Under the pieces are notes generated by a model. It worked only from the letters and a program-made list of their open reading frames with translations, had not been told where the DNA came from and searched no databases. Source: Prevotella sp. (GTDB taxonomy: Bacteria; Bacteroidota; Bacteroidia; Bacteroidales; Bacteroidaceae). Taken from it: DNA of 64,000 bases. Shown here piece after piece: positions 52,070-61,277 of the stretch (positions are counted from its first letter, which is position 1; each line of letters opens with the position of its first letter). The position numbers and the translations under genes were made by a program. Location of the stretch: NCBI GenBank assembly GCA_017410365.1, contig JAFQQY010000009.1, positions 113,361-177,360 of the forward strand. Direction: 5' to 3'.

Positions 52070-52636
52070 ATGGCAGTAGCAAAGTATAAGATAGTACGGA
52101 AATGTCCTGTGTGCGGAGAAGAGTTCTTCGCAAGGACTTTGGAGTCCTGGTATTGTTCACCCAAATGCTCCAAGGTGGCGTGGAAGCGTAAGCATGATGA
52201 AGAAAAACGCCAACTTGAACTGGACAAGATTGTAAGCAATATGCCCAAGTCTAAAGAGTATATCAGCATAACGGAAGCGTATGCTATGTTTGGTGCAAGC
52301 CGCTCAACCATTTATAGGCTCATCTACATGAAAAAGATTTCCTTCATTGAGCCAGAGAAAGGAATACGACTTGTATGCAAAGGAGAACTAATGAATCTGT
52401 TTCCGTTAAGACAGTCTCCGCTTGACACCAAGCCAAGGAAACCAGTTACCATGTACCGCATGGAACCAGAGGATTGCTATACAATAGGTGAGATTTCCAA
52501 GAAATTTCATCTGGATGACAGCACCGTGTATGCTCATATACGAAAATACTCAATACCGACCCGGCAAATCGGTAATTATGTGTATGCTCACAAGGAATCA
52601 ATAGACAAACTTTATAAAGATATAAAACCATTATGA
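52070..52636 (+). CDS. zinc-finger plus double excisionase-type HTH protein
   Basis: A 188-residue DNA-binding protein. The N-terminus has a Cys4 zinc ribbon (CPVCGEEFF ... WYCSPKCSKVAWKRKH, residues about 10-40). Two MerR/excisionase-type helix-turn-helix domains follow: YISITEAYAMFGASRSTIYR (about 62-110) and CYTIGEISKKFHLDDSTVYA (about 135-180). Proteins of this type act as recombination directionality factors or regulators in Bacteroidota elements. Its stop overlaps the integrase start (ATGA, 52633), which supports control of integration/excision. It is the first gene of the element and has the promoter at 51941. Confidence 0.82.
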   Translation: MAVAKYKIVRKCPVCGEEFFARTLESWYCSPKCSKVAWKRKHDEEKRQLELDKIVSNMPKSKEYISITEAYAMFGASRSTIYRLIYMKKISFIEPEKGIRLVCKGELMNLFPLRQSPLDTKPRKPVTMYRMEPEDCYTIGEISKKFHLDDSTVYAHIRKYSIPTRQIGNYVYAHKESIDKLYKDIKPL

Positions 52637-53880
52637 AAAGATTAGATTATACTAAAGTCTCCGTCAAATTAAAGAAAAGTGAGTGGAGAGATGAGTGGTT
52701 CATCTATCTTGAAGCTTATCCTGTTTATGAGACGGGAAATGACAAACCCAAACGAGTGCGTGAATATCTCAGGAGGTCTATTACTACCCCTATATGGGAT
52801 AAACGACGAAGCGAGCGAGCCGTTGCTGGTAGAATAAAGTACAAGCCCAAGCGAGATGACAATGGCGTTATTCAGTGTAAATCCAAGCAAGATATGGAAA
52901 CTTGCCTTTATGCGGATGGCGTTCGAGTCCTGCGTCAAAAAGAGTACGACAACATGGCTCTCTTTACTGACCAGCAAATGGAAATGGCAGAACAAAGCGA
53001 ACGCTCAAAATGCAATGTTCTGGAGTATATTGAGAAGTTAATCAAAGAAAGAGAGGAAACTGCGTCAGAATCGATAGTTGTCAACTGGCGCAGATTGCAC
53101 ACACTGTTGTCAATGTTTGCCAAGTGTGACTACATACAGTTCTCGCAGATTGACATGAAGTATATTGAGGCATTCCGTTCCTTCTTGATAAAGGCACCGC
53201 AGGGTGGTTCTAAGAAAGGAACTATTTCAAGGAATACGGCATCGACGTACTTCTCTATCTTCAAGGCGGCACTCAAACAAGCTTTCGTGGATGGCTATCT
53301 GAATTGTGATATTGCTGCCAAGGCTAAAAATATCATGTTTCAGAGTGCTCGAAGAGAGTATCTGTCACTGGAAGAACTTAATATATTGGCAAAGACTCCG
53401 TGTGATGATATACTAAAACGGGCAGCCTTGTTCTCTGCACTGACAGGAATGCGACATAGCGATATTCAAAAGCTTAAATGGTCAGAGGTTGAAGAATACA
53501 ATGGTGGGTACCGTCTCAATTTCACTCAGCAGAAGACTAAGGGCGTTGAATACATGCCTATATCGCCACAGGCATACAAGCTTTGCGGTGAGCGCAAGAA
53601 AGACGGAGAACTGTTGGTGTTTGCCGGACTGCCTGACCCTTCATGGATATCTAGGCCTTTGGAACGGTGGGTAAAAGCATCAGGGATTACCAAGCACATC
53701 ACCTTTCATTGCTTCCGCCACACCTATGCAACGTTACAATTGGCTAACGGTACAGACATATATACCGTAAGCAAAATGTTAGGGCATACCAATGTAAAAA
53801 CCACGCAAATCTACGCAAAAGTAATTGACAAGAAGAAAGATGAAGCTACAGAAGCTTTTAAGTTGGACATAGATGAATAG
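52633..53880 (+). CDS. int: tyrosine recombinase / integrase
   Basis: Catalyses integration and excision of the element. The 415-residue protein has an N-terminal arm-binding part, a SAM-like core-binding domain (about 125-220) and a catalytic domain. The catalytic residues are visible: Arg274 in ALTGMRHSDIQKLKW, His359/Arg362 in HCFRHTYATL, His385 in LGHTNVKTTQ and the nucleophile Tyr394 in QIYAKV. This is the CTnDOT/Bacteroides transposon integrase type and appears intact. It is translationally coupled to the upstream excisionase-like gene and closed by a terminator at 53913. Confidence 0.95.
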   Translation: MKRLDYTKVSVKLKKSEWRDEWFIYLEAYPVYETGNDKPKRVREYLRRSITTPIWDKRRSERAVAGRIKYKPKRDDNGVIQCKSKQDMETCLYADGVRVLRQKEYDNMALFTDQQMEMAEQSERSKCNVLEYIEKLIKEREETASESIVVNWRRLHTLLSMFAKCDYIQFSQIDMKYIEAFRSFLIKAPQGGSKKGTISRNTASTYFSIFKAALKQAFVDGYLNCDIAAKAKNIMFQSARREYLSLEELNILAKTPCDDILKRAALFSALTGMRHSDIQKLKWSEVEEYNGGYRLNFTQQKTKGVEYMPISPQAYKLCGERKKDGELLVFAGLPDPSWISRPLERWVKASGITKHITFHCFRHTYATLQLANGTDIYTVSKMLGHTNVKTTQIYAKVIDKKKDEATEAFKLDIDE

Positions 53881-57041: not shown

Positions 57042-57941
57042 ATGAATATTGAACAATCGAAGAAACTGAGCATTATAGACTTCTTAGACAAGGAGAATGT
57101 AACGCTGAAAAAGAAGAAGGGCAATGCCTACTGGTATCTGTCACCCTTCAGGGACGAGAAGACCGCATCGTTCAAGGTCAGCAAGAAGGAGAACCTGTGG
57201 TACGACTACGCCATTAAGGAGGGCGGTGACCTTGTGGAGCTGGTAAAGCGTATGTATAACAAACAATCCGTTTCCGATGCCCTTGCCTACCTTGCGTCCA
57301 AGAGTATTGCCACTGTGGATAAGGCAATCGAGACCGCTATCGCAGCCAAGGAATACACGACAACCAAGATGAACGATGTGAAGCTGCTCCCACTGAGCAA
57401 CCATTCTCTGCTGTCCTATTTCAGTAGCCGACGGATAGACATCACCATTGGCAGGATGTATTGCAGGGAGATACACTACAAGGTTGAGCAAAAACATTAC
57501 TATGGCATTGCCTTTGGCAATCTGAGTGAAGGACATGAGGTGCGCAATCCCTATTTCAAGGGCTGCATCGGGCATAAGGACATCACCCTGCTTGCCCATA
57601 CGTTCAACGAGTGGCAAAACGGTTGTCTGGTCTTTGAGGGCTTCATGGACTTCCTTGCTTATATGACCCTCGTTAAACAGCAAGACCGATGGTTTGTCGT
57701 TGAAAGCCCTTGCGACTATATGATACTGAACTCAGTCGCCAACCTCAAACAGGCATTGCATTACCTTGACCGTTACACCCACATCCATTGCTTCCTCGAC
57801 AACGACCAGGCAGGACGCAAGACGGTTGAGAGCATCAGCAATGTATTCGAGTACAGGGTGACGGACGAGTCCTTCAGATATGCCGACTACAAGGATGTCA
57901 ACGACTATCTGATGAGGAAGAAACGAACGGCATCTGAATGA
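57042..57941 (+). CDS. Toprim-domain DNA primase-like protein
   Basis: A 299-residue primase-like protein. The N-terminus matches the CHC2 region in shape (YLSPFRDEKTASFKVSKKEN, then LWYDYAIKEGGDLVELVKRM) but lacks the zinc-binding cysteines, as is usual in element-borne Bacteroidota relatives. The Toprim domain has the catalytic Glu in LVFEGFMDFLAY (about residue 196) and the DxD-type motif in CFLDNDQAGRKTVE (about 250). It would prime replication of the excised element or the transferred strand. It is preceded by the iteron-like spacer and followed by a 156-base gap before the cargo cassette. Confidence 0.87.
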   Translation: MNIEQSKKLSIIDFLDKENVTLKKKKGNAYWYLSPFRDEKTASFKVSKKENLWYDYAIKEGGDLVELVKRMYNKQSVSDALAYLASKSIATVDKAIETAIAAKEYTTTKMNDVKLLPLSNHSLLSYFSSRRIDITIGRMYCREIHYKVEQKHYYGIAFGNLSEGHEVRNPYFKGCIGHKDITLLAHTFNEWQNGCLVFEGFMDFLAYMTLVKQQDRWFVVESPCDYMILNSVANLKQALHYLDRYTHIHCFLDNDQAGRKTVESISNVFEYRVTDESFRYADYKDVNDYLMRKKRTASE

Positions 57942-58056
57942 CATTATAAAGACGAAAACACCATCATTTGATGCAAAAATGGCTCAAATGCATTGAAATT
58001 ACATATCAAATCTGCACTTTTTCGCCCAAACATGCTTGATTCTCAATTATTATCCT

Positions 58057-58064
58057 TATTTTTG
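58057..58064 (+). promoter_or_regulatory. -7 box for the cargo cassette
   Basis: TATTTTTG, 34 bases before ATG 58098. A CTTG lies 18 bases upstream. Its position shows that the in-frame start at 57993 is upstream of the transcript. Confidence 0.55.
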
Positions 58065-58097: not shown

Positions 58098-59069
58098 ATG
58101 GAATTGAAAAAAGAAATAAGGATATTGGGCAGACGCTTTGAGGTGGAACCTCGTGCCAAGGAAAGCCTGAAAGGCATCACGGTTGGCGAGAAACTCTCAT
58201 ACCGTTTCTATGATGGCACATACCAAGGCACGCCCCTGCTGTTCGTTGAGCCCAAGAAGGGCAATCCCTCTCCACGGACTTGCGCCATTACGGGCAAGCG
58301 GTTGACCGAAGCCCTGGGACTGCCTGCGGTGTTTATCCTTGCGCCCGGACCCACCTACGAGCGACACAGACTGGCAGACAAAGGAGTCTTCTTTGTCATG
58401 TCCGAGGAATATGCCCATCTGCCAGGCATCATAGCATTGGAGAAGACAAGCAACAGGAAGATTGCCGAAGTATTGACCCCTGTGGCGCAATACATACTAC
58501 TCTATCACCTACAGGTGGGCAGTATTGAAGGAATGTCGCCAAGGGATATTGCACCGTTGCTTCCATATTCTTACGAAAGCGTCACGTTGGGTGTCACCTG
58601 TCTTGAAGATGTAGGACTGTGTCAAAAGATTCAGAACGGACAGCGCAGCAAGGTGGTACACTTCGAGTTGAAGGGCAAGGAACTGTGGGACAAGGCTCAG
58701 AACGTCTTGCTGTCACCTGTGGAGAACCGCATCTTTTGCGATGACATACGCTTGGATGCGGAATACCCCGTATGCGGCATCAATGCCCTGGCACATTATT
58801 CCATGCTTAATCGTGACCGGGAAGAGATGATAATGATGACAAGCAAGGAATATCGTGCCGTCAAGTCGGCTGATGTCATGGAGAATCCCAACATCTATGA
58901 CGGCAACTATATCATAGAGGTATGGAAATACCCTGTTGTCAGCAAAATGGGCGACAAAAGCCAGTGGGTTGATCGCCTTTCCCTTGTCCTTTCGTTGAGA
59001 GATGATGATGATCCGAGAGTAGAAAAAGAAGTAGAACGAATAATCAGTGAACAGAAATGGAAGGATTAG
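58098..59069 (+). CDS. winged-helix protein, AbiEi-like partner of the nucleotidyltransferase
   Basis: A 323-residue cytoplasmic protein. The N-terminal half is alpha/beta (GVFFVMSEEYAHLPGI). A winged-helix/MarR-like region is centred at about 150-215 (MSPRDIAPLLPYSYESVTLG), and the C-terminal domain ends in WKYPV ... VDRLSLVLSL. This matches my recollection of 'MarR-like' genes placed before AbiEii-type nucleotidyltransferases in type IV toxin-antitoxin-like pairs. The frame opens at 57993, but the promoter box at 58057 favours ATG 58098. It overlaps the next gene by 13 bases, so production of the two proteins is coupled. Antitoxin/repressor function is inferred from layout. Confidence 0.65.
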   Translation: MELKKEIRILGRRFEVEPRAKESLKGITVGEKLSYRFYDGTYQGTPLLFVEPKKGNPSPRTCAITGKRLTEALGLPAVFILAPGPTYERHRLADKGVFFVMSEEYAHLPGIIALEKTSNRKIAEVLTPVAQYILLYHLQVGSIEGMSPRDIAPLLPYSYESVTLGVTCLEDVGLCQKIQNGQRSKVVHFELKGKELWDKAQNVLLSPVENRIFCDDIRLDAEYPVCGINALAHYSMLNRDREEMIMMTSKEYRAVKSADVMENPNIYDGNYIIEVWKYPVVSKMGDKSQWVDRLSLVLSLRDDDDPRVEKEVERIISEQKWKD

Positions 59070-59836
59070 TCAAGTTCCGTGAAGCATTTGCGGAATACTC
59101 AGAAAACTATGTGGTGATAGGCGGAGCAGCCTGTGACATCACCATGACCAATACCGTGGTGCGTCCACGCGCCACACACGACATCGACATGATAGTCATC
59201 GTAGAGAACATGACCGAGGCTTTCGCCAATCGCTTCTGGCAGTTTGTGCGGGAGGCTGGCTATCGACCTGAAAAGAGGAAACAGGAGGCTGGTGAGCCAC
59301 CAAGGTATGAAATGTATCGTTTCCTTGATGGTAAAGACGGCTATCCCGAGATGATAGAACTGCTGTCACGCCACCCCGACGTGCTTGGAGAGCCAAAGGG
59401 ATTTGTCATAGAACCTATCCCGACCGATGAAGATGTGTCGAGTCTTAGTGCCATCATCATGGACGATGATTACTATCACTTTACTATCGCACACAGCCAA
59501 CTGACTGATGGCATACGCCATGCCAATTCCGCTGCCTTGATAGCACTGAAGGCAAGAGCCTACCTAAATCTCATGGCAGACAAGCGGGACGGCAAGCATG
59601 TGAACACCAAAGACATCAAGAAGCACCGTTCGGACATCCTGAAAAATGTGGTCATAATGACTGAGGACAACATTGAGGCTCCTGCTTCAATAGTGGCATG
59701 TATAAGGGAGTTTGTCGCCTCCATCAGAGCCGACTGGTCAACTCTCGCAGAACCATTGTCAAAGTCACTCGGTCAAGACGAGGCATTTGTGACCGGACTG
59801 TTAGATCAACTGGATGAATTGTTTATAGAAGCATGA
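59057..59836 (+). CDS. AbiEii-like nucleotidyltransferase
   Basis: A 259-residue protein of the DNA polymerase beta-like nucleotidyltransferase superfamily. The active-site strand and loop read YVVIGGAACDITM near residue 20, followed by VRPRATHDIDMIVIVE with the metal-binding DID at about 41-43; a helical C-terminal part follows. The layout (G-G, R-x-T-x-D-h-D) is that of AbiEii/AbiGii-type toxins, which transfer nucleotides to tRNA or other acceptors. Typical AbiEii is about 250-300 residues. It overlaps the upstream winged-helix gene and shares ATGA with the downstream metallophosphoesterase, forming a tight three-gene operon. Confidence 0.75.
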   Translation: MEGLVKFREAFAEYSENYVVIGGAACDITMTNTVVRPRATHDIDMIVIVENMTEAFANRFWQFVREAGYRPEKRKQEAGEPPRYEMYRFLDGKDGYPEMIELLSRHPDVLGEPKGFVIEPIPTDEDVSSLSAIIMDDDYYHFTIAHSQLTDGIRHANSAALIALKARAYLNLMADKRDGKHVNTKDIKKHRSDILKNVVIMTEDNIEAPASIVACIREFVASIRADWSTLAEPLSKSLGQDEAFVTGLLDQLDELFIEA

Positions 59837-60603
59837 CCAATATGAAGATACAATACGCATCCGACCTGCATCTGGAGTTTGCCGACAATTGGCGGTATCT
59901 GAAAGCCCACCCCTTGGAGGTGACGGGCGACATACTGCTGCTTGCCGGCGACATCGGCTATCTCGGCGATGACAACTACTCCAAGCATCCCTTTTGGGAC
60001 TGGGCATCGGAGAACTACAAGGAGGTGCATTGCTGCATGGGCAACCATGAGTTCTACAAATATTATGATGTGGCGACACTGCCCGACGGCTATCTCTTGG
60101 AGGTACGTCCCAATGTATTCAGCCACTACAACGGTATTGCGAGGATTGGCGACACCGACATCATCCTCTCCACCCTTTGGTCGAGGATTCCTTTGGAGGA
60201 CGCTTACTTCACCGAGCAAGTGATAAGCGACTTCCGCCGTATATTATATAAAGGTGAGCTGATGACCCATGCCCAATTCAATGCTGAGCATGAACGTTGC
60301 CTCACCTTTATCAAGGATGCAGTGGCATATTCGCAAGCAGCCCATAAGATTGTTGTCACCCATCATGTACCATCGTTCCGTATGCTCCACCCAAAGTTTC
60401 AAGGCAGCAAGGCAAACGTGGCGTTCACCGTAGAGTTGGAGGACTATATCACCGATAGCGGCATAGACTATTGGATATACGGACATTCGCACACCAACAT
60501 CGATGCCAGGATAGGCAACACCCAATGCTTGTCCAACCAGTTGGGCTATGTTTTCTCTAACGAACATCAGGACTTCTCCCATGGCAAGTACCTGACCATA
60601 TAG
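59833..60603 (+). CDS. calcineurin-like metallophosphoesterase of the cargo cassette
   Basis: A 256-residue phosphoesterase with all five family motifs: ASDLHLE (about residue 8), LLAGDIG (about 37), MGNHEFY (about 70), VVTHHVP (about 175) and YGHSHTN (about 216). The active site is thus complete for a two-metal phosphodiesterase or phosphatase. There is no signal peptide. The start ATG overlaps the nucleotidyltransferase stop (ATGA), so it is made together with it. A hydrolase coupled to a nucleotidyltransferase could remove or process the nucleotides that enzyme adds; that is a hypothesis. A terminator follows at 60637, closing the cassette. Confidence 0.88.
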   Translation: MTNMKIQYASDLHLEFADNWRYLKAHPLEVTGDILLLAGDIGYLGDDNYSKHPFWDWASENYKEVHCCMGNHEFYKYYDVATLPDGYLLEVRPNVFSHYNGIARIGDTDIILSTLWSRIPLEDAYFTEQVISDFRRILYKGELMTHAQFNAEHERCLTFIKDAVAYSQAAHKIVVTHHVPSFRMLHPKFQGSKANVAFTVELEDYITDSGIDYWIYGHSHTNIDARIGNTQCLSNQLGYVFSNEHQDFSHGKYLTI

Positions 60604-60636
60604 CCATCCACATTTTTTTCATCCACCCTCTTTACA

Positions 60637-60666
60637 AGCTCTTCCCTATCGGAAGGGCTTTTTTTG
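60637..60666 (+). terminator. terminator of the cargo cassette
   Basis: AGCTCTTCC and GGAAGGGCT (one wobble pair) around a 5-base loop, followed by a run of seven T. The rest of the gap to 60824 shows only a weak promoter-like CCTTTGC at 60776. Confidence 0.85.
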
Positions 60667-60824: not shown

Positions 60825-61277
60825 ATGAAGTCATTTGTAATATTCGCCATTGTCGTGACCATAATCTATGTCATCTACTATACGGTCATCATCGTGCAGG
60901 ATCTGTACGGAAAGCCCAAGGACGAGAAGTCACAGGGCGAGTCGTTTGATGTCAGTGACATGACCGACGAGGAAGAGTCGATAGCGGTCAGCGAGAGCGA
61001 CGGTGGTTTCAGCGTAGGCGACAACCAATATGAGACAGCCTACGAGGAGAAGCAGCTTGCAGAGCCTACAGAGGAGGCAGCCGCCACTGCGGAAGAGAGC
61101 AAGCCTCATGTGCTTGAAAAGATACAAAGCGCAATCGAGAAGAAGATGGAGGAAGTGAATACCACCTATTCCGACCCCATGTATTCGGAAGAATTGAACA
61201 ACACCATCATCGCCCGCGGTCTTCGTCACAATGGACGTGACATGGTCAAGGTGGAATCACTCAATAATGAGATATGA
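60825..61277 (+). CDS. small membrane-anchored protein at the head of the tra genes
   Basis: A 150-residue protein with one N-terminal membrane segment (FVIFAIVVTIIYVIYYTVII, residues about 4-23). A very acidic cytoplasmic or periplasmic tail (about 30-95, rich in Glu, Ser, Ala) and a short basic C-terminal part follow (IIARGLRHNGRDMVKVE). Not recognised as a named family. Proteins of this kind (DUF4122-like or TraD-position) often precede the DUF4134 genes in Bacteroidota transfer regions. Its stop overlaps the start of the next gene (ATGA at 61274), so it belongs to the tra operon. Confidence 0.75.
   Translation: MKSFVIFAIVVTIIYVIYYTVIIVQDLYGKPKDEKSQGESFDVSDMTDEEESIAVSESDGGFSVGDNQYETAYEEKQLAEPTEEAAATAEESKPHVLEKIQSAIEKKMEEVNTTYSDPMYSEELNNTIIARGLRHNGRDMVKVESLNNEI

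Follow-up and report, generated by a model that had tools for sequence, protein, structure and literature searches.

Among the systems closest to the locus reported here are two toxin–antitoxin (TA) systems, MenAT and the type IV system AbiE. In AbiE, the antitoxin neutralises toxicity without binding, and phage infection is aborted; MenT toxins transfer nucleotides to tRNA 3' ends. PMC11375011, in the parts consulted, ranks AbiE fourth in abundance among phage-defence systems and assigns the four MenA antitoxins to three independent families. The Discussion of PMC10435456, likewise consulted in part, asks for rescue mechanisms. Toxins have also been described with type I restriction systems, namely PrrC, which is linked to such a system and is countered by phage tRNA repair (PMC2610378, in part), and DarTG2, a TA system within a type I system that was reported as a defence island (PMC12255303, in part). 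A 64,000-nt stretch of Prevotella sp. DNA (order Bacteroidales; assembly GCA_017410365.1, contig JAFQQY010000009.1, positions 113,361 to 177,360 of the forward strand; hereafter, the window) carries three overlapping genes coding for a winged-helix protein (WH), a nucleotidyltransferase (NTase), termed NT, and a metallophosphoesterase (MPE). Judged from sequence, these genes have about an even chance of forming a mobile TA-type defence (or addiction) module in which an NTase toxin is functionally coupled to a phosphoesterase.

The original prediction, made from the window alone, had described such a trio between the replication and tra genes of an element. The three open reading frames (ORFs) and their overlaps (13 nt for WH/NT; 4 nt, ATGA, for NT/MPE) were found there, with helicase and primase genes on one side and tra genes on the other.

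58098–59069, + strand: WH, 323 aa; N-terminal alpha/beta domain, MarR-like winged helix and conserved C-terminal region; putative antitoxin or regulator
59057–59836, + strand: NT, 259 aa; MenT/AbiEii-fold nucleotidyltransferase, putative toxin
59833–60603, + strand: MPE, 256 aa; calcineurin-like metallophosphoesterase with a complete two-metal site; alternative start at 59842

As judged from gene neighbourhoods, the link between NT and MPE is real and frequent, though not obligatory. The main sample was an even sample of the order and comprised 393 genomes, of which 25 had an NT match and 67 an MPE match. MPE stood beside NT in 14 of the 25 NT-bearing genomes: six neighbourhoods had the order WH-NT-MPE (one of them, in genome G120, with a split NT frame), five had MPE-WH-NT and three had an MPE of a second subfamily (two downstream, one divergent upstream). 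The remaining neighbourhoods lacked MPE (six), were cut by a contig end (three) or held NT remnants (two). A larger set contained 114 NT loci and is biased towards close kin, since 80 were taken as the top matches among at least 546 relatives. Here, MPE lay downstream in 58 loci and upstream in 19, while second-subfamily MPEs lay downstream in four (L039, L055, L133 and L135) and divergently in one (L041); one locus had an MPE at 3.4 kb, 21 had none and 10 were cut. Those counted as having none include L190 and L191, which are very remote NT matches (25–27 bits). In locus L108, a gene of 1107 aa lies between NT and MPE. The second subfamily matches PF00149 (1.1e-8 for L135), reaches no more than about 20 bits against the first-family profile and carries a GDIHG...GNHDD signature, which resembles that of PPP protein phosphatases. 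On the NT tree, the four MPE states need nine changes. The MPE tree places downstream and upstream MPEs in separate parts, with lone MPEs among each and the single downstream row L130 on the upstream side; both trees come from short searches.

A second NTase, NT2, which carries the motif GG...R-x-T-x-D-V-D, is also found with MPE. In L154, a gene for a winged helix-turn-helix (wHTH) protein is followed by NT2 and MPE with overlaps of 14 and 4 nt, a near-copy of the plan in the window. In L149 (3865–5343; also in L416 and L417), a single ORF of 492 aa, overlapped at its start by a wHTH gene, encodes NT2 and MPE as a fusion. It is found uninterrupted in three of 31 genomes of one family (100, 98 and 97% identity), which makes an assembly error an improbable source of it. 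In L150 (3929–5333), a wHTH gene precedes an MPE ORF that starts with the first NT2 residues, most of NT2 being gone. NT2 also occurs without an adjoining MPE in many rows, and one plasmid relative of NT2 is annotated AbiEii/AbiGii. When viral sequences were scanned with residues 1–235 of the fusion, no relative appeared, and no plasmid record covered 80% of the fusion. A match of the NT2 profile to the MPE alignment was set aside, as about 14 MPE residues at the end of that profile explain it. The predicted TA-like pair with a linked phosphoesterase thus recurs outside the element: both gene orders occur, a second MPE subfamily takes part, and NT2 stands beside MPE or is fused to it.

The window MPE matches PF00149 (E 9e-14), and D11, H13, D40, N71, H72, H177, H218 and H220, which are presumably its two-metal ligand positions, are invariant in 45 rows, in keeping with the complete active site that had been proposed. 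NT has the fold of MenT/AbiEii NTase toxins, the top rows of the fold comparison being MenT-like and not signal synthases. Residues G22, G23, R38, T40, D42, D44, E101, K165, K189 and D193 are invariant in 60 NT rows, and T40 is kept in 144 of 146, the other two being gaps. The catalytic D, K and D of MenT and its phospho-acceptor S/T have counterparts among T40, D42, D44, K165 and D193, a correspondence of motif and order and not a residue-level structural alignment. Pfam gave no family for the window NT (P0002) at E<=1, so that PF08843 (AbiEii) does not reach its cut-off there; PF08843 matched nine of 25 NT relatives at E<=1 (best 2e-6). Compared by hhalign with 13 local AbiEii proteins, NT reached a probability of 69 over 33 columns. 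The label AbiEii-like in the original prediction is right by fold, with no AbiEii match in Pfam for the window sequence. In addition to NT, three canonical AbiEii genes (PF08843) are present in the genome of the window (G000), on contigs C43, C9 and C16.

WH lies directly upstream of NT in 110 of the 114 NT loci, and the WH-NT pair is widespread on plasmids, prophages and integrative and conjugative elements (ICEs). The expected winged helix was found as a MarR-like fold at residues 123–204, in the centre of the protein, and six of nine invariant residues fall within 230–307. AbiEi antitoxins have an N-terminal wHTH. The suggestion of an AbiE-type pair holds for the NTase fold and for gene order, with the putative antitoxin gene first and overlapping the NTase gene. 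Membership of AbiE itself is unsettled, as the wHTH of WH is central and hhalign against 23 AbiEi-like proteins gave a probability of 12 (E 0.0024). AbiEi structures were not among the fold-comparison rows listed for WH, which excludes nothing. Relatives of WH match Csa3, CasR and CARF models in PADLOC (best 3e-4); a CRISPR/CARF regulator was not adopted, the wHTH being the assumed cause of these matches. A PD-(D/E)XK-like N-domain was considered from the EndoMS row 5gkj_B (E 0.04) and the motif E52-x-K54, and is not claimed, E52 not being conserved.

The defence role that had been proposed fits the placement of relatives in prophages and in or beside type I restriction operons. Nine of the 114 loci have WH-NT among type I restriction genes or at most two genes away: WH-NT or MPE-WH-NT stands between hsdM and hsdS in L046, L050 and L053, between hsdS and hsdR with a 346-aa ORF in L187, and within two genes of hsdR in L043, L055, L057, L125 and L127. 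Neighbouring gene clusters were named by Pfam on representatives. Among the models listed (the best 25 of 180 for neighbours and the best 25 of 42 for the control), the best HsdS, HsdM and HsdR models had seven, six and five members in 119 of 123 proteins from 17 loci, against none above one in 119 of 187 proteins from 20 random regions in 13 of the same genomes. Lone MPE relatives were seen between type I hsdS and hsdM in L155, L180 and L182, and MPE relatives near an HTH_3/HipA_C (hipBA-like) pair in L148 and L184. The trio lies near a cluster of prophage tail tape-measure genes in L003, L035, L040, L115 and L116 (Pfam was run on L115). In Methylocella tundrae (L030, 6759–9077), WH-NT is followed, with a 4-nt overlap, by an nSTAND3/Mrr-like gene of 772 aa in the place of MPE. 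Viral contigs held 33 NT loci, 11 of them with MPE, and MPE relatives on at least 567 stretches. In 73 of the 80 best of these (L273–L352), neither WH nor NT was present, and many stood among small phage genes; such phage relatives are possible counter-defence genes.

In the coupled module, read as an RNA-modifying TA or abortive-infection system, NT would be the effector and, once released, would transfer nucleotides to RNA, most likely tRNA 3' ends, and stop translation, as its fold and residues suggest. WH would be a winged-helix antitoxin and probable autorepressor, consistent with gene order, overlap and wHTH. MPE would act in the same pathway as NT, to which repeated pairing and the fused NTase–MPE protein point, and would most likely end or limit the toxic state by hydrolysing the product of NT, as an off-switch or repair enzyme. 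This role of MPE, taken by itself, is tentative and falls somewhat short of an even chance. It is slightly favoured by the survival of WH and MPE after loss of NT and by the presence of related MPEs in phages. In L147 (4529–6257), WH is directly followed by MPE with no NT; this may be what is left of an antidote, or an anti-addiction pair. Phage MPEs acting as antidotes would parallel the phage tRNA repair that counters PrrC (PMC2610378, in part). The opposite polarity is a strong rival, though on balance unlikely: WH, like MenA1 and MenA3, would silence NT by auto-phosphorylation of T40, and MPE would be the phosphatase that re-arms the toxin, for example on infection. The PPP-like signature of the second MPE subfamily is consistent with such a phosphatase. 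The rival is strong because MenA antitoxins induce phosphorylation of a Thr/Ser that is invariant here and dispensable for MenT1 toxicity: MenA1 and MenA3 induce auto-phosphorylation of MenT1 (at T39) and MenT3, and Ser/Thr occupies that site in all retrieved hits of two related families (PMC11375011, in part). MenT1 T39A stays toxic; therefore, a regulatory role suits the invariant Thr better than a catalytic one. The text of PMC11375011 nowhere uses the word 'phosphatase' and leaves the re-arming agent open, and the catalytic residues of the DS-8 and DS-9 metallophosphatases are needed for anti-phage defence (PMC13092281, in part). Against re-arming, WH and MPE kept after loss of NT and phage-borne MPEs fit an antidote better, and MPE-less pairs exist. 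A fuller version of re-arming, a phospho-gated immune switch that arose several times (with first-family MPEs downstream, first-family MPEs upstream, the second family and the NTase–phosphatase fusion), in which WH locks NT through Thr40 phosphorylation and a linked calcineurin-like phosphatase re-arms it, is a shade less probable again.

Several observations weigh against the coupled module. The pair can exist alone, as the six MPE-less neighbourhoods in the main sample indicate. Among 74 non-redundant rows, MPE was missing from 20, the doubtful L190 and L191 included; overall, about 30% of WH-NT pairs have no MPE. In 34 of 40 lone-MPE loci fetched (L147–L186), no gene resembling NT, NT2, AbiEii or WH lay within three genes, and some lone MPEs adjoin transporter genes. 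Upstream MPEs are intermixed with lone MPEs, so that the linkage may be loose, and co-divergence of NT with MPE (rho 0.61) is weaker than with WH (0.86). The likeness of NT2 to NT is remote (hhalign probability 52 over 45 columns); NT2 reaches a probability of 9.5 against the local AbiEii set and has no Pfam family at E<=0.01. The control for the restriction neighbours was small, and the window copy sits in an ICE outside any restriction operon, while hsd-embedded copies are those of L046, L050, L053 and L187. NT homologues with no association to the phosphoesterase had been named beforehand as evidence against the prediction, and this evidence appeared in part, in those six genomes and the 34 lone-MPE loci; 14 of the 25 NT-bearing genomes have the pairing. 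The link is not obligatory because MPE-less pairs and many lone MPEs exist. The mixing of upstream with lone MPEs and the common, mobile MPE family (67 of 393 genomes) would suit an ordinary two-gene AbiE-like TA system next to which MPE has hitch-hiked into hot spots of mobile cargo. That is made quite improbable by the overlap of 4 nt, both gene orders, the two subfamilies of MPE, the two NTases and an in-frame fusion in three genomes. Part of the MPE family does occupy housekeeping-like places, as in L183, where a Cache/PAS/CBS-DUF294 protein and a symporter lie nearby, but a housekeeping MPE as the sole reading is rejected in view of the overlap, the several pairings and the fusion. Least probable of all is an MPE that serves as a second effector (nuclease or nucleotide hydrolase), with NT making a nucleotide signal or tagging a substrate and WH as sensor. 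In its favour, many calcineurin-like enzymes are nucleases or phosphodiesterases, WH has an uncharacterised alpha/beta domain at its N terminus and an NTase–MPE fusion would allow channelling, but NT resembles RNA-modifying MenT and not signal synthases in the top rows, and many WH-NT pairs have no MPE.

The carrier is an ICE with an integrase (52633–53880), helix-turn-helix genes, a RecA/helicase-like ATPase, a primase and a TraG-type conjugation block. Judged by synteny, the trio is cargo of this gut-bacterial transferable element, inserted between primase and tra genes, because a syntenic ICE in Parabacteroides distasonis lacks WH, NT and MPE and has the 150-aa ORF directly after the primase; the same stretch occurs in a Phocaeicola massiliensis record. 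Identities between the window ICE and the trio-less ICE are 72% for the ATPase, 48% for the primase, 40% for the 150-aa ORF, 64% and 74% for the DUF4134 proteins, 65% for DUF4133 and 77% for TraG. Copies of NT that are 100% identical were found in Bacteroides faecalis, Leyella stercorea (Prevotellaceae), an uncultured Bacteroidales metagenome-assembled genome and a P. massiliensis record, which points to recent spread between families. Bacteroides finegoldii NZ_OY725932.1, with a 100% identical primase, was uninformative as an empty site, the primase being at the record edge. This record, a 'plasmid' in PLSDB, has enolase and dnaK next to the ICE and is probably a circularised chromosomal piece. 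The features that flank the trio are as follows.

57042–57941, + strand: ICE primase, left neighbour; CHC2 zinc finger and Toprim
58036–58064, + strand: putative Bacteroides-type promoter; pattern TTG-N18-TATTTTTG (TAnnTTTG)
60636–60665, + strand: putative intrinsic terminator; 10-pair stem and T run
60825–61277, + strand: 150-aa ORF that opens the tra block; directly 3' of the primase in the trio-less ICE

Of the promoter box and strong terminator originally proposed, both patterns are present. The box is a putative promoter of Bacteroides type, and the hairpin is a putative terminator by its position, the four terminator-like sites in 57–62 kb being no excess over the mean of 4.3 in shuffled sequences. 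The start of MPE may be the next ATG (59842), where its relatives begin (MKIQ).

Two questions on MenT/AbiEii toxins, what re-arms them and what repairs the RNA that they damage, become directly testable with purified proteins through a phosphoesterase that is encoded together with an NTase or fused to it. If true, the phospho-gated switch would supply the missing dephosphorylation step of these toxins. The three-gene defence candidate is unnamed in the libraries used (no Pfam or NCBIfam match for the window WH or NT; weak PADLOC matches). No description of the trio was found in open-licence PubMed Central (PMC) text, and the NTase–phosphoesterase switch that the pairing and fusion suggest is not described there for this toxin family.

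Among known systems, PADLOC PDC-S10 and PDC-M21B are likened to the trio by weak, partial profile matches alone (MPE, E 6e-6; NT, E 0.015); such entries are described, in the source as consulted in part, as candidates from 'guilt by embedding'. DS-8 and DS-9 of DefensePredictor share with the trio a metallophosphatase as essential defence enzyme, but DS-8 consists of a single NACHT-domain protein, the partner in DS-9 is a HAD phosphatase and no NTase is mentioned for either in the part of PMC13092281 consulted. PrrC (PMC2610378) and DarTG2 (PMC12255303), both consulted in part, are toxin modules in or beside hsd operons, as are several WH-NT(-MPE) relatives, whereas their enzymes are unrelated and the window copy is in an ICE. 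AbiE has the same plan, in which a wHTH gene comes first and overlaps an NTase gene of the shared superfamily; the trio differs in an NT without a Pfam match, a central wHTH and a third gene. MenAT (MenT1/MenT3, DUF1814) differs in that a phosphoesterase gene is linked only in the trio, and the likeness of WH to MenA is one of gene position, not of sequence comparison; in common, the two have the NT fold, the T-x-D-x-D, K and D active-site pattern and an antitoxin gene adjoining the toxin gene.
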